Shown here piece after piece: positions 632-54,388 of a stretch of 64,000 bases of DNA. The position numbers were made by a program, and so were the translations under genes. Source of the stretch: Catenuloplanes niger (lineage in GTDB: Bacteria; Actinomycetota; Actinomycetes; Mycobacteriales; Micromonosporaceae); NCBI RefSeq assembly GCF_031458255.1, contig NZ_JAVDYC010000001.1, positions 2,861,001 through 2,925,000 on the forward strand, written 5' to 3'. Every line of letters begins with the position of its first letter. Within the stretch, counting starts at the first letter, position 1. A model generated the notes under the pieces. That model saw nothing but the letters and a program-made list of their open reading frames with translations, searched no databases and was not told the DNA's origin.

Positions 632-698
632 AGGGAGGCCGGCCAACGGCCGACCGGTGCCCGCGGGAGCACCGCGAAGCGACCACGCCGGAAGCGGG
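632..698 (+). repeat. Interspersed intergenic repeat core, copy A
   Basis: This is one of three copies in the window. It has an AGGGAGG box, then 11-12 variable bases, then CGACCGGTGCCCGCGGGAGCA (first 20 bases begin at 651), a variable stretch, and CGCCGGAAGCGGG ending at 698. The 21-bp left block is identical in all three copies and the right block nearly so, with no indels between them. It sits between a plus-strand gene end and the minus-strand LysM gene end at 751. The left and right blocks share complementary CCGG and CCCGC/GCGGG, so a hairpin is possible. Confidence 0.75.
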
Positions 699-750
699 AA
701 CAGCGGGTAAGGGTTTTCAGGCCGTTGGGTCCGGGTTTGCGGTGGTGTCG

Positions 751-2082
751 TCAGTGGCGTGGGCGGCGGCGGTCGCGGAGGCCGAGGAGCGCGCCGACCT
801 GGGCGCCGACCACCGCGGCCGCGGCCAGGACCGCGGAGACCGCGAGGGGCAGTGGGCCGCGGTCGTTGCCGTCCAGGCCCTTGGCGCCGTTGAGGCCGCC
901 GAGCGGGTCCTCGCCGTGGTGTGCCGGTGGTGGGGCCGGTGTGGCGTGGCCACCGGGCGCGGCGGCGCCGGGCGCGGGCGCGGTGGTGCTCGGTCCGGGC
1001 GCCGGCGTCCCGGGCGTGGTGCTGCCGGGCGTGGTGCTGCCGGGCGCGGCCGGTTCGGGTGCGGGCCGCTCGGGTGCGGGCTTCTCGGGGGCCGGTTTGT
1101 CGGGCGCGGGCGTCCCGGGGGTGGCAGTGCCGCCGGGGGCGGTGACCGGCGGTGGGGCGTCGACCAGGCCGGTCGCGTGCTCGCGTACGCCACGGTCGCG
1201 GGCGTTCTCCGGCAGGTGCAGGAAGTCGCCGACCTGGATCCGGTCCGGGTCGGAGATGCCGTTGAGCTGTGCCAGCTCCGGGTAGCGCTCGAAGTCACCG
1301 AGGTAGCGGTCCGCGATCGTGCCCAGGTAGTCGTCCTGTTCGACCCGGTAGACCGGGTCGCCGGGCTGTGCCTCCTTGGCCGGTGCCCGGTAGGACTGGC
1401 CGCCGGCCTCGCCCGCGGTGCTGTTCCCGGTGGCCGCGTGCATCGGGTCGGCACCCGGCGTGCCGCTCCAGGGGCCCTGGTCCCACGCGTTCGGGGCGCT
1501 GAAGCCGGCGCCGACCAGGTCCGGGGTGGCGGGCCGGGCCGGCGCGGCGCCGAACCCGGCGGTGTACGTCGGTGCCGCGCTCTGGTAGCCGACGTGCAGC
1601 GGCGTGTCGCCCGGGATGCCGATGCTCGGCGCCGCCGCGGGTGCGAAGCCGGTGGCCGGCGCGTGCGTGGCGCCGAGGCCGAGCGCGGACGCGGAGGCCG
1701 CGGCGCCGGTGGAGACGATCAGCGTTACGGACGCCAGCAGCGCGGTCGCCATCCGCTGCTGGGTGCGCATGCCGGGCAGGTGCGGCGCCGGCACCCGCAG
1801 GATCATCGCGACCAGCTCGACCAGCACGGACAGCGCGAACGTGAGCCAGCCGAGCCAGCCGACGAGCGCGAGCGCGCGCAGGAAGAGCTGCCCGTCGTCC
1901 GGGCTGGTCAGCGTGTTGATCGCCTGATCGAGCGTGGGCAGCTGGTCCGGGATCGGGTTGCCCGCGACCGCGTAGAGCGCGACCGGCGCGCCGCCCAGCA
2001 GGCCGACGAGCAGCACGAGCCCGGCCAGTCCGGTCGCGATTCGCGCGATCCTCCGCGGTACGGAGATCTGTGTGCTGGTCAT
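751..2082 (-). CDS. LysM-domain membrane protein, last gene of the Tad operon
   Basis: 443 aa. Two N-terminal membrane segments (about residues 15-40 and 70-95) and a third hydrophobic stretch near 110-135 precede an Ala/Gly-rich spacer. A LysM domain follows at about 245-290 (YRVEQDDYLGTIADRYLG ... NGISDPDRIQVGDFLHLP), then a Pro/Thr/Ala-rich wall-spanning linker and a final hydrophobic helix with a basic RDRRRPRH end. LysM domains bind peptidoglycan glycan chains. The gene lies 23 nt downstream of the TadG-like gene, so it probably helps anchor or space the pilus machine at the wall. That role is inferred from position only. Confidence 0.75.
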   Translation of the reverse strand: MTSTQISVPRRIARIATGLAGLVLLVGLLGGAPVALYAVAGNPIPDQLPTLDQAINTLTSPDDGQLFLRALALVGWLGWLTFALSVLVELVAMILRVPAPHLPGMRTQQRMATALLASVTLIVSTGAAASASALGLGATHAPATGFAPAAAPSIGIPGDTPLHVGYQSAAPTYTAGFGAAPARPATPDLVGAGFSAPNAWDQGPWSGTPGADPMHAATGNSTAGEAGGQSYRAPAKEAQPGDPVYRVEQDDYLGTIADRYLGDFERYPELAQLNGISDPDRIQVGDFLHLPENARDRGVREHATGLVDAPPPVTAPGGTATPGTPAPDKPAPEKPAPERPAPEPAAPGSTTPGSTTPGTPAPGPSTTAPAPGAAAPGGHATPAPPPAHHGEDPLGGLNGAKGLDGNDRGPLPLAVSAVLAAAAVVGAQVGALLGLRDRRRPRH

Positions 2083-2105
2083 GCCCCGTCGCCTTCTCTC
2101 GTGGG

Positions 2106-2546
2106 TCAGATGTCCTCGTCGGTCAGGAGTTCCGCGGTGGCGCTGCCGTTGACCGTGACCGTCTCCGGGAAGCCGAAGACCGGCAACATCACCATCTGGT
2201 ACGTCATCTGCACGTCGACCCGCAGACAGCGCGCGGTGTCGGCACAGCCGGCCCCCTGGGTGATCCAGGTGGCGTTGCCCGTCACGCCGGCCCGCCGCAG
2301 GTAGTCGACCGCGGCCGTGGCCGCGGCGCCCATGTCGACCACCTTGAGTCCCTGGCTCATGGCCAGCTCGATGTCGATCTCTTGTCCGCCGGCGCGGGCG
2401 GCCTCCGCGGCCAGGTTGTCCGCGCGCTGCTGGGTGCGCAGCCGGCCGGCCGCGTCGGCGGACAGGCCGATGATGGCGAGGACCGCGAAGAGCGCGATCG
2501 CCAGGAACAGGCTGACCCGGCCACGGTCCCGGTCCGCCCCGGTCAT
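2106..2546 (-). CDS. TadG-like pilus assembly protein
   Basis: 146 aa. The short basic-acidic N-terminus ends in RGRVSLFLAIALFAVLAIIGLSADAAG, a single hydrophobic helix followed by a RTQQRADNLAAEAARAG segment typical of TadE/TadG (Flp pilus minor protein) families. The start ATG overlaps the stop of the preceding gene (ATGA, 2543-2546), so translation is coupled. Position +5 after the predicted cleavage glycine is Phe rather than Glu, unlike its two upstream paralogues. The periplasm/cell-surface part carries two cysteines (C101, C107), possibly a disulphide. It is likely a minor pseudopilin or helicase-like spacer of the pilus; the exact role is unknown. Confidence 0.75.
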   Translation of the reverse strand: MTGADRDRGRVSLFLAIALFAVLAIIGLSADAAGRLRTQQRADNLAAEAARAGGQEIDIELAMSQGLKVVDMGAAATAAVDYLRRAGVTGNATWITQGAGCADTARCLRVDVQMTYQMVMLPVFGFPETVTVNGSATAELLTDEDI

Positions 2547-2986
2547 GACCGGCTCCGGTAGGTGTCCAGGACCGACTCGTACCGCGACTGGATGGTCCGG
2601 TCGCCGGGGACGCCGGGAAAGCCGAGATCCGTGAACGAGACGACGCACGTGACGGTCACGACGACCGAGGCCGGCTGGCCCACCCCGGTGTTGAACGCGA
2701 CCGCCAGCGAGTTCGGCGTGCCGTAGCTGATGACGTTGGTGTTCGTGCAGCGGATGCCCTGGTTGTTCATGGCCTTCTGGGCTGCGGCCCGGGCTGCGGC
2801 GTCGGCCGTGACGACGTCGCGTGAGATGGAGGCGGCGCGGGCCGCGTCGTGTGCGGCGAGGTCGACCGCGTTGGCGGTGGTGGCGGTGCGGCCGACGACG
2901 AACGCGGTCACGATCAGCACGATGAACACCGGCGTGAGGATCGCGACCTCGACGGAGACGGATCCGCGGTCGGCGCGGCGGATCAT
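2543..2986 (-). CDS. TadE-like minor pilin
   Basis: 147 aa. The N-terminus RRADRGSVSVEVAILTPVFIVLIV is a class III (Flp/TadE) signal: Gly at the cleavage point, Glu at +5 (SVSVE), then a hydrophobic helix. The C-terminal domain is extracellular and has two cysteines (C79, C113) likely to be bridged. The 4-nt ATGA overlaps at both ends link it to the TadE-like gene before it and the TadG-like gene after it. TadE proteins are processed by a prepilin peptidase and are needed for pilus assembly; no prepilin peptidase gene lies in the window. Confidence 0.8.
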   Translation of the reverse strand: MIRRADRGSVSVEVAILTPVFIVLIVTAFVVGRTATTANAVDLAAHDAARAASISRDVVTADAAARAAAQKAMNNQGIRCTNTNVISYGTPNSLAVAFNTGVGQPASVVVTVTCVVSFTDLGFPGVPGDRTIQSRYESVLDTYRSRS

Positions 2987-3363
2987 CCGCCACCGCCCGC
3001 GGTGACCCGCTCACGCGGTCCGGTCGCGGTCTGGGTGACCGGGATCGTCCAGCCGGGGATGATGGAGAGCGCGTTGCCGGTGACCACGCAGGTCACGTCG
3101 GTCCCGGTCTTGGTGACCGTGACCGTGGGCCCGGTCAGCCAGTCACCGGCGGCCCTGATGAACGCGTCGGCCCGCTGTTTGCCCGAGCCGTCCTTCGCCT
3201 GGAACAGGCGCTCGGCGCTGACCGCCTCCTGCGCCGCGGCGAGCGCGGTCGCCCGCGCCATGTAGACCGCGGCGACCTGGATGCCTCCGAAGAGCATGAA
3301 CAGGATCACCGGCATCAGGATGGCGAGCTCGACCGGCGAGGCGCCGCGCTGGGACCGGAGCAT
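2983..3363 (-). CDS. TadE-like minor pilin
   Basis: 126 aa from ATG at 3363: MLRSQRGASPVELAILMPV, with Gly, Glu at +5 (ASPVE) and a hydrophobic helix, the classical TadE start. An in-frame ATG at 3423 would add 20 Arg-rich residues. I prefer 3363 because the 14-bp hairpin at 3371-3402 then lies outside the coding region, GGCGAG precedes this ATG by 5 nt, and no ribosome-binding site precedes 3423. Its stop overlaps the start of the next TadE-like gene (ATGA). One cysteine (in VTCVV) is visible in the surface domain. The choice of start is uncertain; the family call is firm. Confidence 0.75.
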   Translation of the reverse strand: MLRSQRGASPVELAILMPVILFMLFGGIQVAAVYMARATALAAAQEAVSAERLFQAKDGSGKQRADAFIRAAGDWLTGPTVTVTKTGTDVTCVVTGNALSIIPGWTIPVTQTATGPRERVTAGGGG

Positions 3364-3370
3364 GCGGGCT

Positions 3371-3402
3371 CGCCGCGCACGGTCGGCGGACCGTGCGCGG
3401 CG
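3371..3402 (-). terminator. Perfect hairpin between small pilin-like gene and tadE genes
   Basis: The 14-bp stem CGCCGCGCACGGTC pairs with GACCGTGCGCGGCG across loop GGCG. It follows the stop of the small pilin-like gene (3435) by about 33 nt. No T-run follows on the minus strand, so it may be an attenuator, RNA processing point or 3'-end stabiliser rather than a full terminator. This placement would let the upstream small protein be made in excess over the TadE proteins. Confidence 0.6.
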
Positions 3403-3434
3403 AGGGCAGGCGAGCCGCGTCATCGTCGGACGGT

Positions 3435-3650
3435 CTAGTTGGGCACCGCGGGGATGGTGCCGAGGTCCCTGTTCATGTAGGCCTGCACCTCGGCGTAGGC
3501 CCAGATCATGACGCCGACCGCGAGCGCGGCCAGACCGGCGATGATGATCACGGTGGAGACCGGGCTCTCGCCACGGTCCCGCTTCTCGGGGCTGGTCAGG
3601 TCCGCCAGCCGGGTGCGGACGGAGACGTATGCGGTGAGGAGTAAGGCCAT
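3435..3650 (-). CDS. Small Tad-locus membrane protein, candidate pilin
   Basis: 71 aa, with GGGAGG 6 nt before the ATG. The sequence KRDRGESPVSTVIIIAGLAALAVGVMIWAYAEV has the same RG-[x]-SPV layout as the neighbouring TadE proteins, followed by one long hydrophobic helix and a short tail. In size and gene position (right after tadC, before tadE) it matches the major Flp pilin slot. The Glu+5 and adjacent Tyr of canonical Flp pilins are missing (the +5 residue is Ser). The 26-residue N-terminal leader is longer than the usual Flp leader. It could be the pilus subunit or a small inner-membrane accessory; sequence alone does not settle it. Confidence 0.6.
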   Translation of the reverse strand: MALLLTAYVSVRTRLADLTSPEKRDRGESPVSTVIIIAGLAALAVGVMIWAYAEVQAYMNRDLGTIPAVPN

Positions 3651-3676
3651 CGTGGGCCTCCCTTCGGGATCGGGTC

Positions 3677-4567
3677 TCAGACCCTGGCCATGAACGGGAA
3701 GAGGACGAAACCGAGCAGGACGAAGACGAGCAGGGCGCCGGGGATGTCGAGGCGACTGGTGACACCCTCGGCCCGGGCCAGAGCCTCGGTCCGGATCTGG
3801 TCGCGGAGGGCGTCCGCTCGACTGCGCAGGGTGTCGTGCACCTGCGCACCCTCGGTTCCGGAGGACTGCATGATCGCGCCGACGTCACCCAGTTCGGGTA
3901 CGCCGATGCGCTCGGACAGCTCACGCAGCTCCTCCCAGGGGGAACGCATCTGCAGCTGGGCGATGTGCAGCGCTTCCCGGATGCGGTCGAACACCCAGCC
4001 GTCGCAGATGTCGGCGGCCTGTTCGAGGGACTGGACCGGGCCGTGCGCCGCCGAGATCTGCAGCGCGACCAGGTCCAGGTAGGTGCAGACGGCACGCCGG
4101 AACTCGCGGCGCGCCCGCTCCGCCTTGGCGAGCACGTCACGGTGCGCGGTCCAGGCCGCGGCGGCCGCGAGCAGCAGGCTGGCGAAGACCGGCACCGCGA
4201 ACGGCGGCCGGACACCGCCCGCCGACATGATCATGACGGACAGGATCGGCGCGACCAGGCCGACCAGCGCGGAGAGCAGGATGGAGAGCGCGTACTGCTC
4301 CGGCGTGCGGCCGAGCAGATCCAGTTCCTGCTCCGGCGGGCGCAGCCAGCGGGCCAGACCGCCCAGCCAGTCGAGCCTCCGGCGGCGCCGGAACTCCCGG
4401 CCCGGCAGCCTCCGGTCCTGGTGCAGGCGGCGCAGCGCGGGCGCGAGCGCGGGAGTGGCCGGCAGCAGCTCGCGGACGACGAGGAACACGCCGGCGCCCA
4501 CGGCGGCGCCACCGCCGACCGCCATCGCCAGGTCGGTGTTGAGCAGCAGGCCGAACGGGGCGTTCAC
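3677..4567 (-). CDS. tadC: TadC-like inner-membrane platform protein (type II secretion F family)
   Basis: 296 aa from GTG at 4567, which overlaps the tadB stop by 4 nt (GTGA). It has an N-terminal helix (DLAMAVGGGAAVGAGVFLVV), two central helices near residues 98-150, a T2SS-F cytoplasmic helical domain (REFRRAVCTYLDLVALQISAAHG ... GWVFDRIREAL), and two C-terminal helices ending LFPFMARV. TadB and TadC form the membrane platform on which the TadA ATPase drives pilin extraction. The order tadA-tadB-tadC with coupled starts is standard for Tad loci. Confidence 0.85.
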   Translation of the reverse strand: MNAPFGLLLNTDLAMAVGGGAAVGAGVFLVVRELLPATPALAPALRRLHQDRRLPGREFRRRRRLDWLGGLARWLRPPEQELDLLGRTPEQYALSILLSALVGLVAPILSVMIMSAGGVRPPFAVPVFASLLLAAAAAWTAHRDVLAKAERARREFRRAVCTYLDLVALQISAAHGPVQSLEQAADICDGWVFDRIREALHIAQLQMRSPWEELRELSERIGVPELGDVGAIMQSSGTEGAQVHDTLRSRADALRDQIRTEALARAEGVTSRLDIPGALLVFVLLGFVLFPFMARV

Positions 4568-5469
4568 CGGGCCTCCTCGATCTGCGGCGAGTGCAGGAAG
4601 CGCGGCACCGGCGGCGGCGTGCTCATCCCGCGCACCCACGCCAGCAGCCCGACGAACATCGCGCCGAGTGCGGCCATCACGATCTGCCCGAGCGGCGAAC
4701 CGTACGGTCGCATGTAGCTGGGGTTGAACAGGCCCAGCAGCAGCACCAGCAGCGTGACGACGGTGAGGAACCGGACCGCGAACCGCGGCTGGGTACGCTT
4801 CGCCTCCACCTCGCGGCGGGTCGCCACGTCCGCGGCGGCGCCGGCCGCGATCGAGGCCAGCACGTCGCTCAGCCGCTCGCCGCGGTCCGTCAGGTGCAGG
4901 ATCAGCGCGGCCACGACCTGGTCCGCGACCGGGTCGCCCATCTCGTCCGCGAACTGCAGCAACGCGTCCCGCGGGCTCTCGCCGGCCCGGAGCCGGGAGG
5001 CGAGCGTCCGCACCTCCGTGTTGATCGTCTCGGGGGCGGTCGCGGCGGTGCTGACGATCGCCTGCTGGAGGCCCTGGCCGATGTTGGAGACGTCCTTCAG
5101 CCGCCGCGTCCACTCGCCGAGCGCCTCGACGCGCGCGATGCTGCGCTGCTCCGCCCGGCCCACGGTGAACAGCCACGGCGCGCCCGGGATCGCGATGCCG
5201 ACCAGCACACCGATCACCGGCAGGCCGGTGAGCAGCCAGGCGAGCGCGGCACCGGCGAACGCGGCGACGATCACCGCGTGGTGCCGCCGGCGGCCGGCCG
5301 CGCTGGGATCGGCGCCGTTCCAGAGCCGCCGCGCCCGCACCATCAGACGCGACTCGGGGCCGGCCGGGCCGGGGCGGCCGAGCAGCGCCACACCGGCCAG
5401 GATCAGGCCGCCGACGATCGCGGCCCCGGCCAGCGCCGCGATCAGCGAGAGGTTCACGGCCGGGTTCAT
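4564..5469 (-). CDS. tadB: TadB-like inner-membrane platform protein (type II secretion F family)
   Basis: 301 aa. ATG at 5469 overlaps the tadA stop (ATGA). A hydrophobic N-terminal helix (residues 6-30), a pair of helices at about 65-105, the T2SS-F domain (LGEWTRRLKDVSNIGQGLQQAIVSTA ... ADQVVAALILHLTDRGERLSDVL) and two C-terminal helices (FLTVVTLLVLLLGL; GQIVMAALGAMFVGLLAWV) give the usual TadB topology. It works with TadC as the platform of the pilus motor. Length is normal for the family. Confidence 0.85.
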   Translation of the reverse strand: MNPAVNLSLIAALAGAAIVGGLILAGVALLGRPGPAGPESRLMVRARRLWNGADPSAAGRRRHHAVIVAAFAGAALAWLLTGLPVIGVLVGIAIPGAPWLFTVGRAEQRSIARVEALGEWTRRLKDVSNIGQGLQQAIVSTAATAPETINTEVRTLASRLRAGESPRDALLQFADEMGDPVADQVVAALILHLTDRGERLSDVLASIAAGAAADVATRREVEAKRTQPRFAVRFLTVVTLLVLLLGLFNPSYMRPYGSPLGQIVMAALGAMFVGLLAWVRGMSTPPPVPRFLHSPQIEEAR

Positions 5470-7022
5470 GCGACCGGCCTCAGCAGGCTGACCCGGGGCC
5501 GGCGCCAGGCACCGGTCCGCGCGTCGATGTAGCGGCTGAGCAGACGCGGGTCGTAGCCGATGCGCAGCAGCTGGTCGCGGACCCGCTCGGGCAGGTGCAT
5601 CGGGATCGCGCGGCCGTCCCGGCCCGGGCCGAAGACCGTGGTGGTGGACAGCCGGCCGCCCTCGCCCATGCCGATGACCTCTTCGACGTGCGAGACGAAC
5701 CGGTGCTTGCGGCCGCCGATCGCGGTCTCGTCCTCGACCGTGACGTAGACGATCAGGTCGAGCGCGTTGCCGGCCATCCGGCGGGCCATCTCGACCGTCA
5801 TCTCGCGGCCGTGCGAGAGCGCCAGCTCGATGATGCGTTCCAGCACACCGCTCGACGTACGCGCGTGGATCGTGCACATCGAGCCGCGGCTCGTGGTCAT
5901 CGCCTGCAGCATCGGGACGATCTCCCGGGACCGGACCTCGCCGACGATGATCCGCAGCACGCCCATCCGCAGCGACAACGGGATCAGGTCCGCGATCGTC
6001 ACCTCACCGGCCGGGCGGCCGTCCGGACCGCGCTCGCCGTGCCCCTCGCGGGACTCGAAACTCATCACGGCCCGGTGGTAGCCGTTCTCGTCCCGGGCGG
6101 GCAGCAGCTCGCGGCTCTCCTCCAGCAGCACGAACGGCTCGTCCGGCGCGATCTCCCGCATCAGCGCGCGGATCACCGTGGTCTTACCGGCACCGGCCAG
6201 GCCCGCGACCATGATGTTCAGGCCGGCGTGCATGGAGGCGCGGAGGAAGTCGCGCAGCAGCGGGTCGAGCATCTCGTCCAGGTCGGCGCGACCGCCGGCG
6301 ATGTCGTCCAGCGTCACGTCCAGCGTGTTGTGCCGCCGGATCACCGCGTACGGGCGGCGGCTGACCAGATAGACCGCGGCGAGCCGGCTGCCGTCCGGCA
6401 GTTGCAGATCCAGCGTGGGCTTGGAGGTGGACAGCGACCGCTCGGTGGCACCGGCCCGGCGCGCGGCGGCCTGGATCGTCTCGATCATTTCCTCGTCGCT
6501 GTCCGCGATCGGCTCGCCCCAGTCCACGCCGCCACCGCGCCGGGTGATCCGCACCCGGTCGCAGCCGAGCACGTGCACCTCCTCGATGGACGGGTCGGTC
6601 AGCAGCCGCTGGAGCCGGCCCAGGCCGACCATCTCCGCGGTGACCAGGTCGAGCAGTACCCGTTCGTCGGCCGCGGAGATCGGCGTGCCGGTGCGGCGCT
6701 GGCCGTCCGCGTACTCGGCGACGATCCCGACCGCGAGCCGGTCACGCTCGCGCCGCTCCTCCTCGGGCGTGAGGTGCTGGCCGCGCTCCAGGACCGTGAT
6801 CCGCTCGCTCAGCCGCCGGCGCAGCTCCTTGACCACGGACCAGTCCCGGCGCGGCGCGCCGGTCGGGGCCGGGGAAACCGGTGGCGCCATGGCACCACCG
6901 GCCGGCTGCGGCGCGATGTTGAACGCCTGCGCGGGGAAGGCCGGGTGGCCGCCGTTGGCCGGCGGGTGTCCGTTGGCCGGCGGCACCGGCCGGGGGTCCT
7001 GGGAGAGTGGCTCAAACCGCAC
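5466..7022 (-). CDS. tadA: TadA/CpaF-type pilus assembly ATPase
   Basis: 518 aa. A Pro/Gly-rich N-terminal extension of about 60 residues precedes the conserved helical domain and the type II/IV secretion ATPase core. Walker A is GLAGAGKTT (Lys280); the Asp box (EESREL), Walker B-like RIIVGEVRSREIVPML and His box (CTIHARTSSG) are all present. It hydrolyses ATP in the cytoplasm to power assembly of the Tad pilus through TadB/TadC. The start overlaps the end of tadZ by 11 bp. All catalytic boxes are intact, so the locus should have a working motor. Confidence 0.92.
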   Translation of the reverse strand: MRFEPLSQDPRPVPPANGHPPANGGHPAFPAQAFNIAPQPAGGAMAPPVSPAPTGAPRRDWSVVKELRRRLSERITVLERGQHLTPEEERRERDRLAVGIVAEYADGQRRTGTPISAADERVLLDLVTAEMVGLGRLQRLLTDPSIEEVHVLGCDRVRITRRGGGVDWGEPIADSDEEMIETIQAAARRAGATERSLSTSKPTLDLQLPDGSRLAAVYLVSRRPYAVIRRHNTLDVTLDDIAGGRADLDEMLDPLLRDFLRASMHAGLNIMVAGLAGAGKTTVIRALMREIAPDEPFVLLEESRELLPARDENGYHRAVMSFESREGHGERGPDGRPAGEVTIADLIPLSLRMGVLRIIVGEVRSREIVPMLQAMTTSRGSMCTIHARTSSGVLERIIELALSHGREMTVEMARRMAGNALDLIVYVTVEDETAIGGRKHRFVSHVEEVIGMGEGGRLSTTTVFGPGRDGRAIPMHLPERVRDQLLRIGYDPRLLSRYIDARTGAWRRPRVSLLRPVA

Positions 7023-8598
7023 GTGGCAGCTCCTCCGTGATCGGGCCGTCCGGGAGGGGTCGCGATCCGTTCGGGGTGCCGTTCCTGGTGGGCGGCGGTG
7101 CCGGTTGGTCCGGTTGCGGCGGCACGTGCGGTGTCCGTTGCGCCTGGTGCGGGACCGTCGAGCCCTGCCACAGACTCGTCACCGGCTGCTGTACCGAAGG
7201 CGTCGCGGGCTGCTGTGCCGGAGGTACCGCGGGCTGCTGTGCCGGAGGTACCGCGGGCTGCTGTGCCGGAGGCGTCGCCGCCGTGGGTGAACCCTCCCGC
7301 GGCGCGGCCGAGGCCGGCCGCATGCCCGGCACCTGCGGCAACGCCGACGCCGGCGGAGCGGGCGTCGGCGCGGCCCACTGCGTGGAGACCGTCGCCGGGC
7401 TCGCGGCGGACTGGCCCTGCTGGGCCGGGTGTCCGGCCTGCGGGGCCGAGTGTCCGGCCTGCGGGGCCGAGTGTCCGGCCTGCGGGGCCGAGTGTCCGGC
7501 CTGCGGGGCCGAGTGTCCGGCCTGCGGGGCCGAGTGTCCGGCCTGCGGGGCCGAGTGTCCGGCCTGCGGGGCCGGATTCACGGCTCGGTGTGCGGGATTC
7601 GCGGCCTGACCTGCCGGAGCCGCTTCCTGATGGTGCGTCGCACCGGGAGACTGATGCGCCGATGATGCGACCGCCGACGCCTGATGCGCAGCCGGCTGCG
7701 TCGGCGGCGCATGATGCGCCGCGGACTGCGTCGACGGTGCCTGATGCGCCGCGGACTGGGCCGGTGGTGACTGCGGCGCCGCGGACTGGGCCGACTGGGG
7801 CATCGGTGGCATCGGCGTCGCCATGGCGTTCCACGTGGAGCGCGCCCGCCGCCGGTCCACCATGGACCGGACCGGCATCTCCAGCGCCGCCGCCGCGCGC
7901 ATCAGTGGCCGGCGCCCCCGGACCGTACCCCCGTAGCTGAGCACCTGCGCGGTCTGCCGGTCGATCGGCAGGTGCGCCGCGACCGGCACGCTCAGCGCCC
8001 GGCTGATCTCGCCCTTGCCGTGCCCGCCGCCGACCACCACGAGCCGCACGGTCCCCGGCGGTACGCCGTTGTCGCGCAGGTCGCGGCCGATCGCCTCGAT
8101 CGTGGCCGCCGCGTTGGACAGGTCCGGCAGCCGGGCCGACGTGACCACCAGCACCGCGGACGCGGCGCGCAGGATCGGCCACGGCGGGTTCGCCACGTGC
8201 AGCCGGCCACAGTCGGCCAGTACGTCGAAGCCCGGGTTCTCGTACTCCAGCCGGGTGAAGAAGTCCGCGAACCGGCCCCAGAGCGGCGTCAGGCTGCCGG
8301 CCTGCGCCGGGTTCGCCAGGCCGGGCAGCAGCAGGCGCTGCCGCTTCGGCGCGTCCAGGTCGACCAGCTGACCCCAGAAGTCCTGTTCCAGGCGGCCGTC
8401 GCGCAGCTCGGAGACGGCCAGCTCGCCGATGCCGCGCGGCCCCTCCAGCGCGCCGCCCAGGTATCCCGCCATCAGCGAGCCACCGGCCGGGTCGCACTCG
8501 GCCAGCACGACCCGGCTGTGCCAGGAAAGCGTGCAGGCCAGGGCCGTCGTGGTCACGCCGGGCGAGCCCTTGGGCGAGACGAACGCGATGATCGCCAC
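7012..8598 (-). CDS. tadZ: TadZ/CpaE-like ParA-family ATPase with long repetitive tail
   Basis: 528 aa. Residues 1 to about 250 are a MinD/ParA-type ATPase: deviant Walker A SPKGSPGVTTTA at the N-terminus, then LAECDPAGGSLMAGYLGG and a later DCGRL segment. The remaining half is low complexity, with His/Gln/Pro/Ala-rich blocks, seven tandem GHSAPQA units (about residues 340-388) and three PPAQQPAV units. TadZ places the pilus machine at the cell pole or specific sites. The long tail is unusual for the family and may be a flexible tether or self-associating segment. The signature lysine expected near the start of a deviant Walker A is present (PKG). Confidence 0.8.
   Translation of the reverse strand: MAIIAFVSPKGSPGVTTTALACTLSWHSRVVLAECDPAGGSLMAGYLGGALEGPRGIGELAVSELRDGRLEQDFWGQLVDLDAPKRQRLLLPGLANPAQAGSLTPLWGRFADFFTRLEYENPGFDVLADCGRLHVANPPWPILRAASAVLVVTSARLPDLSNAAATIEAIGRDLRDNGVPPGTVRLVVVGGGHGKGEISRALSVPVAAHLPIDRQTAQVLSYGGTVRGRRPLMRAAAALEMPVRSMVDRRRARSTWNAMATPMPPMPQSAQSAAPQSPPAQSAAHQAPSTQSAAHHAPPTQPAAHQASAVASSAHQSPGATHHQEAAPAGQAANPAHRAVNPAPQAGHSAPQAGHSAPQAGHSAPQAGHSAPQAGHSAPQAGHSAPQAGHPAQQGQSAASPATVSTQWAAPTPAPPASALPQVPGMRPASAAPREGSPTAATPPAQQPAVPPAQQPAVPPAQQPATPSVQQPVTSLWQGSTVPHQAQRTPHVPPQPDQPAPPPTRNGTPNGSRPLPDGPITEELPRAV
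7430..7576. repeat. Seven 21-bp tandem repeats inside tadZ
   Basis: Seven almost identical copies of a 21-bp unit (core TGTCCGGCCTGCGGGGCCGA) encode the heptapeptide GHSAPQA on the minus strand. A second, separate 24-bp repeat (three copies, 7205-7276) encodes PPAQQPAV in the same protein. The near-perfect identity at DNA level indicates recent expansion by slippage, so copy number probably varies between strains. The unit is a multiple of three, so the frame is kept. Confidence 0.9.
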
Positions 8599-40555: not shown

Positions 40556-40777
40556 ATGGCAGGCAACGAGCACGAGGTCAACCGCAGCACCAAGAGCGGC
40601 CGTTTCGTCAAGCAGAGCACGGCCGAGCGTTCCCCCGACACGACGGTGACCGAGCACGTCGGCGGCTCCGACAACGACGGCGACCGCGAGGTCAACCGCA
40701 GCGCCGCGACCGGCCGTTTCGTCCGCGAGACGACCGCGGAGCTGCACCCCGCCACCACCGAGACCCAGCGAGTCTAG
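40556..40777 (+). CDS. Small hydrophilic protein with an internally duplicated 30-residue motif
   Basis: 73 aa from ATG at 40556 (GGAGGAG 11 nt upstream; GTG at 40544 is too close to that site). Two copies of EVNRS-x-x-x-GRFV-x-x-x-TAE-x-x-P-x-TT-x-T-E-x-V occupy residues 6-36 and 43-73, joined by an acidic GGSDNDGD. Single copies of a similar GRFV/GRYV...A-x-x-P-x-T-x-x-E motif occur in many short bacterial proteins of unknown function. It has a SigB-like promoter. No signal or membrane helix, so it is cytosolic; possibly a stress or nucleoid-binding protein, unproven. Confidence 0.7.
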   Translation: MAGNEHEVNRSTKSGRFVKQSTAERSPDTTVTEHVGGSDNDGDREVNRSAATGRFVRETTAELHPATTETQRV

Positions 40778-40823: not shown

Positions 40824-41036
40824 TCGCGTCTCCCGGCCCGCACCGCGACACCCGCCCGCACCGCGTCTCCCGGCCCGCACCGCGACACCCGCCCGCACCG
40901 CGTCTCCCGGCCCGCACCGCGACACCCGCCCGCACCGCGTCTCCCGGCCCGCACCACGACACCGGACCGCACCACGACACCAGGCCGCACGGCGGCACCG
41001 GACCGCCACAGCGGTCTTCGCTCGTGCGGCCACGGA
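40824..41036. repeat. 37-bp tandem array (copy B of composite element)
   Basis: Three near-perfect 37-bp units (40824-40934), each made of a 19-bp half (CCGCGTCTCCCGGCCCGCA) and an 18-bp half (CCGCGACACCCGCCCGCA), followed by decaying copies to about 41036. There are no spacers of differing sequence, so this is not CRISPR. It is non-coding and precedes repeat core B. The whole gap 40778-41169 contains only this array, the core and the tRNA terminator. Confidence 0.85.
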
Positions 41037-41042
41037 TCGTGC

Positions 41043-41108
41043 AGGGAGGAGCGCCAGCGACGACCGGTGCCCGCGGGAGCATGCGGAACGGAACCCGCCG
41101 GAAGCGGG
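41043..41108 (+). repeat. Interspersed intergenic repeat core, copy B
   Basis: AGGGAGG, 11 nt, then the 21-bp block beginning CGACCGGTGCCCGCGGGAGC at 41061, and CGCCGGAAGCGGG ending at 41108. It lies between the small-protein gene (plus) and the tRNA-Lys gene (minus), that is, again between convergent units. Confidence 0.75.
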
Positions 41109-41135
41109 TCGATGAATGGCACCGGAAAAAGCGAA

Positions 41136-41160
41136 TCCCCCGAGCGAATCGCTCAGGGGA
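41136..41160 (-). terminator. Intrinsic terminator of tRNA-Lys (minus copy)
   Basis: TCCCC-C-GAGCG / CGCTC-A-GGGGA with loop AAT (one mismatch). On the minus strand it is followed by TTCGCTTTTT. It starts 9 nt after the tRNA 3' end. Confidence 0.85.
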
Positions 41161-41169
41161 TTTCAGAGG

Positions 41170-41242
41170 TGCGCCGCGTAGGACTTGAACCTACAACCCG
41201 CGGATTAAGAGTCCGCTGCTCTGCCAGTTGAGCTAGCGGCGC
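41170..41242 (-). tRNA. tRNA-Lys (anticodon CTT)
   Basis: 73 nt cloverleaf: acceptor GCGCCGC/GCGGCGC with discriminator A, D-arm AGCTCAACTGGCAGAGC, anticodon loop CTCTTAA, T-arm GTAGGTTCAAGTCCTAC. CCA is not encoded. It is identical to the plus-strand copy at 44409-44481. About 60 bp of upstream sequence is also shared, including TTGGAA and TAGTGT elements 19 nt apart (plus-strand 41286-41291 and 41261-41266), probably the promoter. Confidence 0.97.
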
Positions 41243-44408: not shown

Positions 44409-44481
44409 GCGCCGCTAGCTCAACTGGCAGAGCAGCGGACTCTTAATCCGCGGGTTGTAGGTTCAAGTCCTACGCGGCGCA
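44409..44481 (+). tRNA. tRNA-Lys (anticodon CTT), second copy
   Basis: Identical over all 73 nt to the minus-strand copy at 41170-41242, in inverted orientation. The upstream 60 bp is conserved as well: TTGGAG at 44359-44364 and TAACGT at 44384-44389 with the same 19-nt spacing. CCA is not encoded. A strong terminator follows 10 nt later. Confidence 0.97.
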
Positions 44482-44490
44482 CTCCTCACA

Positions 44491-46908: not shown

Positions 46909-46919
46909 CGACGTGCCGG

Positions 46920-48890: not shown

Positions 48891-49025
48891 CGGCTCCCCC
48901 TTTGCCCGTTATCGGACCATACAGACGGAAACGTCGGTATCAGTCGCATCGACACGGCTCAGGGGGTGGGGAAAACGCGGCGGCCCGACCCCACAACGGG
49001 ATCGGGCCGCCGGAACGCGTGCGGG

Positions 49026-49760
49026 TCAGGCGTTCTTCGTACCCTCGGGGGTGGCCGGCGTCGCCGGGCGCGCGCCGCTGCGGGTGAACGCCAGCCCGCC
49101 GAGCACCAGCCCGACCAGGCCGGCGACCAGCGCCGCGATCGCGATGCCCAGCGCCGGGCCGGAGTCCGACGCGGACTCGGACGAGGCCACCGGCGCGGCC
49201 GACGGTGCCTCCTCCGCGGCGGCGGTCAGCGTGAGCACCGGCGCCGGGCTCTCCGGCTCCTCGCCGCCGGCGGCCGGCTCGTCGATCCAGCGCACGACCT
49301 CGCCGTCCGAGTACGTCTGCAGCGCCTTGAAGACCAGCTGGCCGGTCTCCGGCAGCGGGCCGAGCGAGACCGGGAACTCCTGGAACGTGCCGGGCGTGAT
49401 CCGCGCGTTCTCGTCCGCGGTCCAGGTGATCTTCTTGACCACCTCGGTGATCTCCGCGCCGTGCGCCGTCACCGGGATGGCGGGCGCGCCCTTCTCGATC
49501 GCGACGGTCCAGCCGGGCACCGGCTTCGTCGAGACGGAGCCGATCGGCGCGTCCTCCGGCAGGAAGATCTCCACCTTGGTGGTGGACTCGGTGTCGCTCT
49601 CGTTCGGCACCCGGAAGTCCACCTTGGCGTACCCGCCCTGGGTGGCCTCCCGGGGGTTGACCGTGACGTGCGCGGACGCCGGACCGGCGACGGCGAGCAC
49701 GCCGACGACCGTGGCGCCGAGGCTGAGCAGTGCCGCGCGGGCGGCGGTACGGGGAGACAT
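49026..49760 (-). CDS. YcnI-like (DUF1775) copper-associated surface protein
   Basis: 244 aa. The signal peptide ends at ASA, so the mature protein begins HVTVNPREATQGGYAKVDFRVPNES, placing His1 as a copper ligand as in B. subtilis YcnI. The beta-sandwich DUF1775 domain covers about 30-170; an acidic Ala/Ser stalk and a C-terminal TM helix (about 205-228) anchor it. It lies 14 nt downstream of the copC-copD fusion gene, the standard ycnJ-ycnI pairing, and probably helps deliver or scavenge copper. Confidence 0.9.
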   Translation of the reverse strand: MSPRTAARAALLSLGATVVGVLAVAGPASAHVTVNPREATQGGYAKVDFRVPNESDTESTTKVEIFLPEDAPIGSVSTKPVPGWTVAIEKGAPAIPVTAHGAEITEVVKKITWTADENARITPGTFQEFPVSLGPLPETGQLVFKALQTYSDGEVVRWIDEPAAGGEEPESPAPVLTLTAAAEEAPSAAPVASSESASDSGPALGIAIAALVAGLVGLVLGGLAFTRSGARPATPATPEGTKNA

Positions 49761-49774
49761 GGCTGTCCCTTCAG

Positions 49775-51445
49775 TCAGGAGGCGACGTCCACCGTGACGG
49801 TGACGGTGGCCTGATCGATCTCGGTGGTGCGGAGGGTGAACTTGAACTCCCAGGTGCCGGCCGCCGGCAGCTGGAACTCGCTGATCGCGTGGTTGTCGGC
49901 GACGCGGAGCATGGGTACGTCGATCGGCTCGATCCCGGCGGCCGGGAGCGCCGCGGTGGTGGTCCACTCCTCCGCCTTGAGCAGGTTCGTGGTGCCGGGC
50001 TCGTACGCGTACAGGTGCATCGAGTTACTGCCGACCTTGGCCGGGTCCAGCTCGACCTGCAGCGTGTAGAGCGGGCTGTCGACCAGCACGGAGAAGTAGC
50101 CCTGGTCGGTCAGCGCCGCGTTCTCCGACTCGGTGCGCGCCGGCGTCTGCTGGACCAGCACGGACGTGAGGCCGAGCACGACCACGGTGATCGCCAGTTC
50201 GGCCCAGACCGCGGTCCGGATCCGCCCGGGGTTCTCCGTGGTGACCCGCTTGCGGACCAGCGACCGGGAGTACGCGGCGATGCCGACCACGGCCGCGAAC
50301 AACGCGGTCTTGGCGAGGATGAACCGGCCGTAGGTGGTGCCGGTGAGCGCGGCCGGCGTGCCGATCTCGATGAGCGCGTTGACCACGCCGGCCAGCAGCA
50401 GCGCGCTGACCGCGAGCGCGGCCCACCGGGACCAGATCGGCAGGATCGCGCCGAGCTCGCGCTCGCTGGCCTGGCGCAGCAGGAAGCCGACCAGCATGAC
50501 CAGGCCGCCGAGCCAGACCGCCATGCTGACCAGGTGCACCGCGTCGACCACCACGGAGACGGCTGCGACCGGTGAGGCGGACGGGTGGCCGGTGAGCGGC
50601 CAGGTGAAGACCGCGGCGGTGCCGAGCGCGGCGAGCACGATCAGGTCGACCATGTTCTCGCCGCTGCGGCCGCCGTCGCCGCGCTCCGCGAGGATCGGCC
50701 GGAGCATGATGGCGATCGCGGCGAGCAGGCCGAGCCGCACCAGCAGCGCGGTGCCGAACGCGCTGGCGACCACGTCGCCGAGACCGCCGGCGTCCAGGAT
50801 GTTCCCGCCGCTGGTGTACGGCGCCTGTAGGTAGAGCGCGGCGAGCGTACTGAACGCGACCAGGCCGAGGCCGGCGCGCACCAGCCGGGCCGGTACGCGG
50901 CGGCTGAGCCGGGCCGGCCAGAGGAACAGCAGCACCAGGACCGGGCCGACGACCAGGACGAGTCCGGCGTACCCGAGGAACTTGACGACCGGGATGGTGT
51001 TCTTCACCACCGGGTCGGTCTCGTCGCCGTCGTCGGTGAGCGCGGGCACCGCGGACGTGGCGCCGACCGAGAACGTGAACGCGCCGCTCACCGGGTGACT
51101 GTCCGCCGAGATGACCCGATAGCTGACCAGGTACGTACCGCGCTGGTCCGCGGTGATCGGGATGATCAGCGTCGAGCCCTCCGCGCGCGGGTCACCGCCG
51201 ACCCGGTCGCCGTTCGGCGCGATCACCTGGATCTTGCCGCTGACCGGGCTGACCCCCTCGCTGAAGGTGAGCTTCACGTCACCCGGTGCGGTCTGGACCA
51301 CGGACTGGGTGGCGGGCGTGGTGCGCTGCAGGACGGCGTGCGCGCTGGCCGGGCTCGCCGGTCCGACGAACACCGCGAGCGCGCCCAGGACGAGCGCGGC
51401 GAGCACGGCCCAGCGACGTCTTCTCTCGGCAGTCATGCCGGACAT
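49775..51445 (-). CDS. CopC-CopD fusion (YcnJ-like) copper transport protein
   Basis: 556 aa. The signal peptide ends SASA and the mature N-terminus HAVLQRTTPATQSV starts a CopC domain, with a second copper ligand region SADSHPVSGAFTF. From about 150 to 440 a CopD-type domain gives eight or so TM helices, and a C-terminal beta-rich YtkA-like domain (about 455-556) faces outside. The fusion imports copper across the membrane in YcnJ-type systems. Two starts are possible (ATG 51445 or 51436); GGGAG lies just before the first. It is co-transcribed with the YcnI-like gene. Confidence 0.9.
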   Translation of the reverse strand: MSGMTAERRRRWAVLAALVLGALAVFVGPASPASAHAVLQRTTPATQSVVQTAPGDVKLTFSEGVSPVSGKIQVIAPNGDRVGGDPRAEGSTLIIPITADQRGTYLVSYRVISADSHPVSGAFTFSVGATSAVPALTDDGDETDPVVKNTIPVVKFLGYAGLVLVVGPVLVLLFLWPARLSRRVPARLVRAGLGLVAFSTLAALYLQAPYTSGGNILDAGGLGDVVASAFGTALLVRLGLLAAIAIMLRPILAERGDGGRSGENMVDLIVLAALGTAAVFTWPLTGHPSASPVAAVSVVVDAVHLVSMAVWLGGLVMLVGFLLRQASERELGAILPIWSRWAALAVSALLLAGVVNALIEIGTPAALTGTTYGRFILAKTALFAAVVGIAAYSRSLVRKRVTTENPGRIRTAVWAELAITVVVLGLTSVLVQQTPARTESENAALTDQGYFSVLVDSPLYTLQVELDPAKVGSNSMHLYAYEPGTTNLLKAEEWTTTAALPAAGIEPIDVPMLRVADNHAISEFQLPAAGTWEFKFTLRTTEIDQATVTVTVDVAS

Positions 51446-51701
51446 GCTCTCCCACGGATGTGGCAGTGATCGCCGGTGGTCGGCGTGGCGTGTTTCGCAC
51501 CTACCGTTCCGGCCCCAAATATAGGACCAAAACCGGCAAATCGCGGGGGGCGGAGGGGCATGCCGAGTTGGTCGGGCGACCGGCCCGGATAGTTCCCGGC
51601 GATCACGGGACCTTCGCCCGTACCCGTGCGGTCCCCGCCGCGTCACCGTGAGCACGGAACCGGGCGACGGCTCGGACCGACCAAGGGAGGTGGACTTCTC
51701 T

Positions 51702-52166
51702 GTGCAGGATCGAGCCGGACCCTGGGCCGGACTCGTCGCCCGGCTCGGGCTGGCGGCCGTCTGGCTCTACGCCGGCGGCGCCAAGGTCGGTGATCTGGCC
51801 GGGTCGGCGCGCGCCGTCAACGCGTACCAGCTGCTGCCCTTCGACGTCGCCCAGGTGATCGGTGCGATGCTGCCGTTCGTCGAGGTCGCGGTTGGGCTGC
51901 TGCTGCTGGCCGGGCTCGCGACCCGGGTCTCGGCCGTGGTGTCCGCGCTGCTGCTGATGGTCTTCGTCGCCGGCATCGCCAGCGCGTGGGCACGCGGCCT
52001 GCAGATCGACTGCGGATGCTTCGGCAGCGGCGGGCAGCTCGCCGCCGGGGAGAGCCCCACCTACGGCTGGGAGATCGCGCGGGACGTCGGGTTCGTGCTC
52101 CTGGCCGGCTACCTGATCGTCCGTCCCGACTCCAGATTCTCCGTCGACCGCTACCTGACGAGGTAA
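51702..52166 (+). CDS. MauE/DoxX-like membrane protein
   Basis: 154 aa from GTG at 51702, preceded by AAGGGAGG; GTG at 51648 would add 18 residues without a ribosome-binding site. Four TM helices and the IDCGCFGSGG motif are typical of the MauE family, thought to pass reducing equivalents for disulphide formation across the membrane. It lies 6 nt before the DsbA-like gene, which supports a thiol-redox pair. It is divergent from the copper genes (256-bp intergenic region, no other gene seen). Confidence 0.85.
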   Translation: MQDRAGPWAGLVARLGLAAVWLYAGGAKVGDLAGSARAVNAYQLLPFDVAQVIGAMLPFVEVAVGLLLLAGLATRVSAVVSALLLMVFVAGIASAWARGLQIDCGCFGSGGQLAAGESPTYGWEIARDVGFVLLAGYLIVRPDSRFSVDRYLTR

Positions 52167-52172
52167 ACGCGC

Positions 52173-52889
52173 ATGAGCTCACGAAAAGACCAGAAGCAGG
52201 CGAACCGGATGGTACGCGAGCAGCTCGCCAAGGAGCAGCGCCGCCGGACCACGCTGTGGACCTCGGTGGCCGCCGCCGCGGTGCTGCTCGTCGCCGGCAT
52301 CGCCGGGTACGGCATCTTCGCCGCCCAGCGCTCCGGCGAGGTGGTCACGCCGGCCGCCGCGACCGCGGACGGCACCGGCTTCGCCATCGGCAACGGGTCC
52401 GTCACCATCGACATCTACGAGGACTTCATGTGCCCGGCCTGCGGCCAGTTCGAGAGCGAGGCCGCCTCGACCGTCGACCGGCTGGTGGACGAGGGCAAGG
52501 TCACGGTGGTCTACCACCCGATCTCGATCCTGGACCGCTACTCCAACGGCACGAACTACTCCACCCGCGCGTCCGGCGCCGCGGCCTGCGCGGCCGACGG
52601 GGGCAAGTTCACCGAATACCACAAGACGCTCTTCGACAACCGGCCCGAGGAGGGCACCTCCGGCCTCGACGACGCGAAGCTGATCTCACTCGGCACCACG
52701 CTGGGTCTGGGGGACGACTTCACGCGGTGCGTCGAGGACGGAAGATACAAGACGTGGAGCGCACAGATCACGGACCGGGCGAGCGAGCGCGGGGTCACCG
52801 GCACGCCCACCGTCTACGTCGCCGGAACCGTGCTCAAGGACCGTTCCGCGGCCGGCCTGACCAGCGCGGTCGAGGCGGCCGTCAAGTAG
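52173..52889 (+). CDS. DsbA-family membrane-anchored thiol oxidoreductase
   Basis: 238 aa. Basic N-terminus (RKDQKQANRMVREQLAKEQRRR), one TM helix (about 28-50), then a thioredoxin-fold domain with active site CPAC in YEDFMCPACGQFES and the cis-Pro loop GVTGTPTVYV. Domain order is that of actinobacterial DsbA-like proteins (thioredoxin_4). It forms or reshuffles disulphides in exported proteins and probably works with the MauE-like protein encoded 6 nt upstream. Confidence 0.92.
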   Translation: MSSRKDQKQANRMVREQLAKEQRRRTTLWTSVAAAAVLLVAGIAGYGIFAAQRSGEVVTPAAATADGTGFAIGNGSVTIDIYEDFMCPACGQFESEAASTVDRLVDEGKVTVVYHPISILDRYSNGTNYSTRASGAAACAADGGKFTEYHKTLFDNRPEEGTSGLDDAKLISLGTTLGLGDDFTRCVEDGRYKTWSAQITDRASERGVTGTPTVYVAGTVLKDRSAAGLTSAVEAAVK

Positions 52890-52924
52890 GCCGGCCGGCG
52901 GCGGGCCGGCTGGCGGCCGCGGTC

Positions 52925-54145
52925 GTGGCCGGCGTGCTGCTCGCGCCGGTCCCGGCCGGACCCGCGCTCGCGCACGGGGCGGACGCGCCGGCCGGCACGA
53001 ACTACCGCGCCCGGCTCACCGGCGTCTCACCGGCCGTGCCGGGCGTCCGGCTGCGCGTCATCGAGGCCGGCGCCCGGCTCGAGCTGACCAACACCGGCCG
53101 CCGCGAGATCGAGGTGCTCGGCTACCAGGGCGAGCCCTACCTGCGGATCGGGCCGGACGGGGTCTGGGAGAACGTCAACTCCGCGGCCACCTACCTCAAC
53201 GCCAGCATCGCCACCTCCGCGACCGTGCCGGCCACCGCCGGGCCCACCGTGCCGCCGTCGTGGCGCCGCGTCTCCGACCGGCCGGCCGCCCGCTGGCACG
53301 ACCACCGCACGTACTGGATGAGCGAGGAGCAACCGCCCGCGGTCGCCGCGGACCCCACCCGGACCCAGCGGGTACGGGACTGGACCGTCGACCTCCGCGA
53401 CGGCGTCACACCGATCACCGCGACCGGCACGCTCGACTGGGTGCCGCCGCCCTACGCCGGCGGCTGGTGGGCCGCGGTGGTCCTGGTCGCGGCCGCGGTG
53501 GCCGCGCTCGGCCTGCTGCACGGCCGGGCGGCACGGTGGCCGATGGCCGCGGTGTCCGCGCTCGCCGGGGTGGCCGCGCTCGCCTACACCGTCGGGCGCG
53601 AGATCGACGCGGGCAACGACACGCTCGGCACCGCGCTCCCCGCGCTGCTGTCCACCCAGCTGTGGCCCGCGCTCACCGGCGCCGGCGCGCTGGCCGCCGC
53701 GGCCGTCGCCGTCGCCCGGCGACCGGCCGCGGACTTCGCGCTCGCGCTGGCCGGCGTCTGCACCGGCGTCTTCGTCGGCCTCGCGAACGCGGGCGCCCTG
53801 CTCAACTCCGTCGTGCCGGCCCCGTGGCCGCCGACCGTGGCCCGGGTGCTGGCCGTGGTCGCGCTCGCGGGCGGCTTCGGTCTCACCGCCGCCGCCGTGC
53901 TGCGCATGCGCGCCACCGCGCTCGCCGCCACCGCCGATCCCGCCGGCTCCGGCGACGCTCCCGACGGCTCCTCCCCCGCCGGCGGTTCCGCTCCCGACGG
54001 CGGCCGCTCCGCCGCCCAAAACCAGTCCGCCACCGGGGGCCGGGACGCCACCGGGGGCCGGGACGCGGCCCGCCCACGCCCGCGCCGCGCACCGCTGACC
54101 CTCAAGGCGGCGCTGGAAGAGCAGCCCGACGACGACCGACCATGA
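52925..54145 (+). CDS. Five-TM membrane protein of the copper/thiol cluster, function unknown
   Basis: About 406 aa. The frame is open far upstream inside dsbA, and the only near start codons are GTG at 52925 (used here) or a CTG at about 52910; neither has a good ribosome-binding site, so the start is uncertain. A signal peptide (VLLAPVPAGPALAHG) precedes a beta-rich domain of about 150 residues with ARLELTNTGRREIEVLGYQGEPYLRIG and a HDHRTYW His-rich stretch, then five TM helices (from about residue 180) and a disordered Gly/Ser/Asp tail. The mature N-terminus would begin with HG. A link to copper is inferred only from the neighbours. Confidence 0.65.
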   Translation: MAGVLLAPVPAGPALAHGADAPAGTNYRARLTGVSPAVPGVRLRVIEAGARLELTNTGRREIEVLGYQGEPYLRIGPDGVWENVNSAATYLNASIATSATVPATAGPTVPPSWRRVSDRPAARWHDHRTYWMSEEQPPAVAADPTRTQRVRDWTVDLRDGVTPITATGTLDWVPPPYAGGWWAAVVLVAAAVAALGLLHGRAARWPMAAVSALAGVAALAYTVGREIDAGNDTLGTALPALLSTQLWPALTGAGALAAAAVAVARRPAADFALALAGVCTGVFVGLANAGALLNSVVPAPWPPTVARVLAVVALAGGFGLTAAAVLRMRATALAATADPAGSGDAPDGSSPAGGSAPDGGRSAAQNQSATGGRDATGGRDAARPRPRRAPLTLKAALEEQPDDDRP

Positions 54146-54322
54146 CGTAGCCGGCGTGGGCCTCGGCCGCGAGGACGGATCTCCGGCACCCCGGCGACCG
54201 GCGCCGCCTCCGAGAGACCTCGGGCGCGAAGCCCGCGACCGGCGGTGTGCGGGACCGGAGGCGCGCGGCCGGCGTGCGGGACGCGGGACGCGCGGTTCGT
54301 GGTGACCGCCCACCCGACCGGA

Positions 54323-54388
54323 AGGGAGGCCGCCCGCGGCCGACCGGTGCCCGCGGGAGCATGCGGGCCGCACCACGCCGGAAGCGGG
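54323..54388 (+). repeat. Interspersed intergenic repeat core, copy C
   Basis: AGGGAGG, 11 nt, the 21-bp block from 54341, variable bases, and CGCCGGAAGCGGG ending at 54388. It lies between the plus-strand membrane-protein gene (ends 54145) and the minus-strand cbiO-like gene (ends 54406), the third convergent setting. The 170 bp before it contain loose GTGCGGGAC-type repeats, weaker than arrays A and B. Confidence 0.75.

Follow-up and report, generated by a model that had tools for sequence, protein, structure and literature searches.

Why does one short sequence recur along a chromosome, each time in the same orientation and each time where two transcription units end face to face? This question is raised by a 64,000-nt stretch of Catenuloplanes niger DNA (contig NZ_JAVDYC010000001.1, positions 2,861,001 to 2,925,000; hereafter the window). 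The exact 20-mer CGACCGGTGCCCGCGGGAGC, termed here the core, lies on the + strand of the window at 651, 41061, and 54341, with AGGGAGG on the 5' side and CGCCGGAAGCGGG, the tail, on the 3' side of each copy. All three copies are flanked by the end of a + strand gene and the end of a - strand gene or tRNA. The first-pass annotation had described a three-copy element of 66-67 bp with these shared blocks, which we found as described. However, the genome holds roughly 220-230 copies, and the repeat is about 130-146 bp long. In this study, we show that the copies belong to an abundant modular family, which is probably a genus-specific, non-autonomous, mosaic dispersed repeat resembling the repetitive extragenic palindromic (REP) and BOX elements and tolerated at gene 3' ends.

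The right arm is confined to Catenuloplanes among the sampled genomes

A search of the genome and of related Micromonosporaceae had been proposed along with the original description. The core gave 233 matches at up to two mismatches in the 9.74-Mb genome, compared to 3 for the reversed control, and 265 compared to 48 at three mismatches. An exact pattern for the right arm, which starts within the core and ends at the tail, gave 222 matches in the window's genome (G000) and 0 for its reversed control. The same pattern matched 174, 233, 173, and 292 times in four other Catenuloplanes genomes, giving 173-292 copies per genome in 5/5 genomes of the genus. It had no match in the 295 other sampled Micromonosporaceae genomes, and the reversed control matched twice in all 300. 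These results indicate that, among the 300 sampled genomes, the right arm is confined to Catenuloplanes.

AGGGAGG followed by the core was also searched in named species genomes, a scan that may omit records of the window's own genome and very near relatives; it returned 112 stretches, 111 from Catenuloplanes japonicus and one from Dactylosporangium fulvum. The latter (L145:4191-4210, - strand) has AGGGAGG and the core exactly, lacks the right arm, and has no gene called within 1.6 kb. A related family, marked by GGAGCGGTGCCCGCGGGAGC, was found with 101, 50, 26, and 19 matches in four genomes of another Micromonosporaceae genus (g31), and with none in two further genomes of g31. One genome of a third genus (G027) gave 16 near-matches, which are uninspected pattern hits. 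A phylum sample of 395 other genomes gave only single near-matches, in two genomes. When window copy 2 was used as the query against phage and plasmid collections, no match was obtained at E 0.01, and the exact 20-mer had no match in viral contigs.

One right arm follows exchangeable modules

The right arm consists of CCCGCGGGAGC, about 15 nt, and CGCCGGAAGCGGG. It is common to units whose preceding parts are quite different. Module A is the type seen in the window, B is 26 bp shorter, D carries a long hairpin, E and F are further modules, and C denotes copies interrupted by another element; the labels were assigned by loose patterns and are mistaken in some cases, such as the copy at 266374 in G003, which was labelled B and carries the end of an insertion sequence (IS). 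Some D-type units are directly followed by an F-type unit, forming tandem composites (L097, L111, L123, L136, and L215-L234 of the G001 block).

The edges of the unit were examined in 217 copies, after 45 of 262 right-arm matches had been dropped for want of a clear tail. Conservation sets in close to a T-tract some 60 nt ahead of the right arm and stops in a T-rich stretch past the tail. TTTT was present at -70..-51 in 39/217 copies and 0-29 nt past the tail in 55/217, compared to 1/217 each at -150..-131 and at 60-89 nt.

The original description included a hairpin formed by CCGG and CCCGC/GCGGG segments. A hairpin does exist, and it lies mainly in the segment just before the core and in the tail; the CCGG and CCCGC/GCGGG pairing fared less well. 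A closing stem between the left GCGGG and the right CCCGC was rejected because the left side varies while the right side is constant (by eye). The module A hairpin occupies the 12-13 nt before the core and falls by eye into two classes: one, GAGC-N4-GCGA, contains two G-A pairs, and the other, GCCG-N4/5-CGGC, has Watson-Crick pairs. Both classes are present in the window, and the same alternation was seen by eye in the related g31 family. The hairpin loop of copy 1 is longer by one base (a 13-mer at 638-650, compared to 12-mers in copies 2 and 3), contrary to the statement that no indels separate the blocks. In the module D stem, 33 cells were changed on both sides among 21 distinct sequences, compared to 10.2 in shuffles, and 0/500 shuffles were as high. 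The covariation score was 0.272, compared to at most 0.113 for shifted pairings.

A rival reading takes the repeat for a structured RNA, a 3'-untranslated region (UTR) or small RNA transcribed from the + strand. The covarying module D hairpin, for which the + strand gives the more stable fold in 28 of the 34 distinct stems (mean -21.1 vs -19.1), and the alternation of tandem G-A and Watson-Crick pairs in module A are both consistent with such an RNA. However, hairpins in single-stranded DNA would yield the same covariation, and G-U pairs in module D were equal in the folds of the two strands (21 and 22). The RNAalifold covariation term for module A units was unfavourable on both strands, and these units carry no global fold signal. 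Different modules also occur at the same site. No Rfam family matched the repeat at gathering score, where the window matches were four tRNAs only, and sub-threshold matches were weak and far under their cut-offs. Taken together, a structured RNA is quite unlikely. The Rfam result, together with the lack of phage and plasmid matches for copy 2 and of any description in the literature searched, agrees with the earlier statement that no named element has this sequence.

The best sub-threshold Rfam match on window copy 2 was RsmZ (19.8 bits vs a cut-off of 44, E 0.008), and GGA occurred 6.83 times per copy vs 4.41 per shuffled copy in 161 non-independent copies. These observations prompted the idea of a decoy RNA that binds CsrA. 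The idea was set aside because csrA also occurs where the repeat is all but absent (it matched in 29/111 genomes of the family, 21 of them in eight genera with at most single repeat matches) and because g31, which bears the related repeat, is absent from the 29 csrA-matching genomes listed. One csrA gene is present in each of 5/5 Catenuloplanes genomes (G000:C1:4834874-4835029 in the window's genome).

Copies are enriched between convergent genes

Since the copies were said always to lie between convergent units, neighbouring gene orientation was tabulated in two samples, both of which contain the three window copies. Genes were called by our own codon-usage script, tRNAs being ignored. Because of this, window copy 2 was scored as tandem, though it is convergent with a tRNA-Lys gene. 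The first sample comprised 146 copies from G000 and the named-species scan, fetched by the exact core or by the exact AGGGAGG-plus-core pattern, with three matches of three mismatches dropped; since it was fetched by exact patterns, it is nearly all module A and overstates core conservation. Here 21 copies were too near a locus end and one lay within a called gene. The 124 classified copies comprised 71 in convergent gaps, 28 at which the gene on the 3' side ends but not the one on the 5' side, 20 with the reverse arrangement, and 5 in divergent gaps. The Dactylosporangium fulvum copy L145, which has no nearby gene calls, had been treated as C. japonicus in this sample, and its removal gives a genus-only convergent count of 70/123. 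The second sample was taken from four orthologous blocks of 400-464 kb with 70 right-arm matches, one of which (in G004, inside a called gene) was dropped. Of the remaining 69 elements, 47 were convergent, 9 had only their 3'-side neighbour ending at them, 6 only their 5'-side neighbour, and 7 were divergent.

In gaps of at least 60 bp in the four blocks, an element was present in 44/146 convergent, 14/402 tandem, and 7/240 divergent gaps. The comparison of convergent gaps with all others (44/146 vs 21/642) gave an odds ratio of 12.8 (Fisher p 4e-20). The claim that copies are always convergent thus holds for 3/3 window copies and, as a strong enrichment, beyond the window, whereas exclusivity does not hold there (70/123 and 47/69 of the classified copies). 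The statement that the element is not a promoter agrees with the single copy of 146 inside a called gene and with the 5/124 in divergent gaps. The related family in g31 was also mostly convergent, in 12/18 classified copies of G059 and 11/16 of G171 (28 and 20 copies were examined, of which 9 and 3 fell close to the end of a locus, and one in each genome was within a gene call).

The repeat also has a polarity. The gene facing its 3' end runs towards the element in 99/124 copies (98/123 without L145) and in 56/69, where the gaps as a whole would predict 48% and 44%. Among the convergent gaps, 42 hold one element only; the 3' end was nearer the stop codon in 29 of these (p 0.02; Wilcoxon p 1e-4 for the distances) and lay within 30 nt of the facing stop in 24, compared to 14 for the 5' end. 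For these distances, the left end of the element was assumed to lie at 65 or 95 nt. The genes next to the repeats are of many kinds: a sample of 94 complete genes of 60-500 aa, taken from the window and L039-L099, matches 166 Pfam families, the commonest of which occurs in 4. Where an element starts 7-20 nt past a stop codon, the final codons of that gene tend to be rich in A among the sites listed, as in GAAAAACCCTGA at site 89727 in G000 and G003, and the repeat flank may supply C-terminal codons of adjoining genes.

This position raises the possibility of a transcription-end function, already put forward in the first-pass annotation. The repeat would then be a module at which transcripts of the converging genes are terminated or processed, on one strand or on both. 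The position and polarity at gene 3' ends, the hairpins, and the + strand T-tracts at both unit edges are in line with it. An intrinsic terminator, with a GC hairpin directly followed by a T-run, was rejected: such sites were found in 11/217 ends on the + strand and 9/217 on the - strand, a single shuffle giving 3 and 8. Judged by eye among the sites listed, the gene often has an ordinary terminator of its own ahead of the element (the tRNA-Lys gene in the window; site 309024), and 102/146 convergent gaps have no element. These results suggest that a transcription-end function is unlikely.

Sites and modules differ between species

In the four blocks, 19/36 sites were occupied in at least two species and 17/36 in one species only, some of the latter without an orthologue to compare. 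The cleanest empty site is represented by a 146-bp stretch that holds the unit in G003, whereas the corresponding gaps in G001 and G004 measure 13 and 11 bp, in keeping with a unit of that size. As to the marks of a miniature inverted-repeat transposable element (MITE), no obvious target duplication was seen at that one site, and TTTTCC/GGAAAA was noted, by eye only, at the two ends of the unit. Module labels differed between species at 14 of the 19 shared sites, three of the 14 only through the residual class 'o'. Site 89727, for example, carries modules A, A, B, and D across four species. The variable part of the right arm was more similar at orthologous sites (0.31) than at random (0.19, p 0.008), and in the 34 orthologous pairs of different type its similarity was 0.28 (p 0.03). 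Judging from these similarities, some of the sites were probably inherited from a common ancestor and have changed module since.

A more elaborate scheme can be drawn from the same observations, in which the right arm stays fixed at its chromosomal site and an enzyme swaps the hairpin module (A, B, D, or E) through folded single-stranded DNA, without a transposase of the HUH/Y1 type. We regard this scheme as very unlikely.

The repeat resembles REP and BOX elements

The reading as a mosaic, REP/BOX-like mobile repeat draws on copy number, distribution, modularity, hairpin conservation, enrichment at gene 3' ends, moderate polarity, and differences between species, all of which were observed. 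Under this reading, the repeat would be spreading, or would once have spread, as a small mobile element that is moved in trans by an enzyme working on the hairpin DNA. Copies would have accumulated downstream of genes because insertions there cost least, and there is probably a target bias for the end of the terminator or stop region. Any effect on the host would be mostly neutral, with a role in the 3'-UTR or in supercoiling being secondary.

Several results weigh against it. No mobilising enzyme, target-site duplication, or terminal inverted repeat was established, and just one really clean empty site was found among those seen. Polarity is weak in tandem gaps, where 37 copies of both samples have the 3' end and 26 the 5' end towards a gene end (the 26 include window copy 2 twice, though it faces a tRNA end). 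Module A units showed no excess folding stability compared to shuffled sequences (z -0.33 on the + strand and -0.36 on the - strand, 40 copies). Shared sites with different modules could be hot spots that received a new insertion rather than places of exchange, and re-insertion remains a candidate because right-arm similarity at orthologous sites is barely above random. Finally, the 20-bp core is exact in 13/13 copies of the 464-kb G000 block, beside diverged flanks, and this could reflect selection for protein binding.

The exact core, together with the strong enrichment in convergent gaps, would also suit a chromosome-structure site, the other function suggested in the first-pass annotation. 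Such a site might be bound by gyrase or a nucleoid protein and relieve supercoils between convergent genes. Such a role of gyrase in supercoil relief has been proposed for some bacterial interspersed mosaic elements (BIMEs) of Escherichia coli. However, the core is less exact elsewhere (6/15 in G003 and 6/20 in G004 among the matches listed), the right arm is absent from the other sampled genomes of the family, and nearly half of the block sites are occupied in one species only. That close species differ in the sites they carry, and that most sampled sister genera lack the repeat, argues against its being essential. A chromosome-structure site would seem highly improbable on this evidence.

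The mobile-repeat reading finds its closest parallels in three published sources. BOX, RUP, and SPRITE are described as mobile, possibly parasitic repeats with the same positional bias (PMC3049150). Since such a bias has been published for mobile repeats of the REP/BOX kind, position alone is no proof of function. Like BOX of Streptococcus pneumoniae, the Catenuloplanes repeat is composite, with a constant end, variable internal modules, predicted stem-loops, and an excess between convergent genes, and its length at a given site varies among genomes through the internal modules (PMC3049150). Unlike BOX as described there, it has a much higher G+C content, a single constant right arm joined to interchangeable hairpins in place of tandem boxB units, and a tendency to face the stop codon with one end; the likeness to BOX is one of description, not of alignment.

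REPs are reported to lie mostly in convergent and unidirectional gaps near gene 3' ends (PMC3733652). Like the GTAG and CGTC families, the Catenuloplanes repeat has extragenic palindromic copies that number in the hundreds and mostly adjoin gene 3' ends or fall within convergent gaps. It differs from these REPs in being far longer than 20-40 bp and in the lack of a REP-associated tyrosine transposase (RAYT, Y1) in 5/5 genomes. The Y1/RAYT family PF01797 was found in 0/5 Catenuloplanes genomes, with 5/14 controls positive. No constant GTAG was seen in the aligned copies, and CGTC (reverse strand) was seen by eye only in part of the A copies. Strict REP/RAYT membership was thus rejected on the missing tag, the wrong size, and the missing transposase. 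BIMEs are similar in having extragenic palindromic copies by gene 3' ends, some of them in head-to-head pairs. Three of four close pairs of the Catenuloplanes element were head-to-head.

The repeats therefore look like a new family of a known general kind rather than a new gene-end signal. In the literature searched, we found no earlier description of this family, nor of any such family for Micromonosporaceae. With five close genomes, it offers a test case for whether repeats choose gene ends or merely survive there. It also bears on module change in place without a known transposase and on one mobile element serving as the landing pad for another.

A miniature insertion element is nested in the core

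An element end resembling GCTNAGTGGCATT abuts the core, at up to one mismatch, in 35 copies in G004, 14 in G003, 2 in G001, 1 in G002, and 0 in G000, compared to 0 for the reversed control of this junction. The other end, resembling AATGCCACTYAGC, was found in 5 of 20 loci (L285-L304) at a distance of 166-741 bp, L290 being doubtful. About 10 bp of the core is present on both sides of the insertion in L287, L295, and L299, the two stretches being alike and not always identical. No transposase gene was evident in the nested element, whose reading frames were not searched against families, and no autonomous parent was found for the repeat or for the nested miniature IS. Judged from these junctions, the repeat core is a landing site for a miniature IS. 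REPs are known insertion-sequence targets (PMC1525189), and the Catenuloplanes repeat is similar to them in that a second mobile element lands in it specifically. It differs in that the inserted element is small in the loci with both ends and has no evident transposase gene.

The three copies in the window

The positions of the three copies and their parts are listed in Table 1. The outer limits of the window units are estimates from the family-wide ends of conservation and T-tracts, and the left T-tract is not clear in copy 1 itself.

Table 1. Repeat units and associated features in the window.
Feature	Position	Strand	Remarks
Copy 1, approximate full unit	595..726	+	65 nt before right arm, 39-nt right arm, 28-nt T-rich 3' flank
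Copy 1, conserved block	632..698	+	AGGGAGG 632-638, core 651-670, tail 686-698
Copy 1, hairpin	638..650	+	Watson-Crick class, GCCG-GCCAA-CGGC; read directly from the sequence
Copy 2, approximate full unit	41005..41136	+	Outer limits estimated
Copy 2, conserved block	41043..41108	+	AGGGAGG 41043-41049, core 41061-41080, tail 41096-41108
Copy 2, hairpin	41049..41060	+	Tandem G-A class, GAGC-GCCA-GCGA; read directly from the sequence
Ordinary terminator-like hairpin, then TTTTT, of tRNA-Lys (-)	41109..41165	-	Between tRNA and copy 2; read directly from the sequence
Copy 3, approximate full unit	54285..54416	+	Outer limits estimated; 3' flank reaches the stop of the - strand gene 54406-55155
Copy 3, conserved block	54323..54388	+	AGGGAGG 54323-54329, core 54341-54360, tail 54376-54388
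Copy 3, hairpin	54329..54340	+	Watson-Crick class, GCCG-CCCG-CGGC; read directly from the sequence

Copy 1 is bounded by a + strand gene call ending at 159 and a LysM-domain gene on the - strand (751-2082). Copy 2 is flanked by a weak + strand gene call without a Pfam match (40556-40777) and by tRNA-Lys on the - strand (41168-41242), and copy 3 by a + strand gene without a Pfam match (52925-54145) and an ABC-transporter gene on the - strand (54406-55155). A second tRNA-Lys gene is present on the + strand at 44409-44482, 3.2 kb from the first; the two have the same CTT anticodon and an equal Rfam score.

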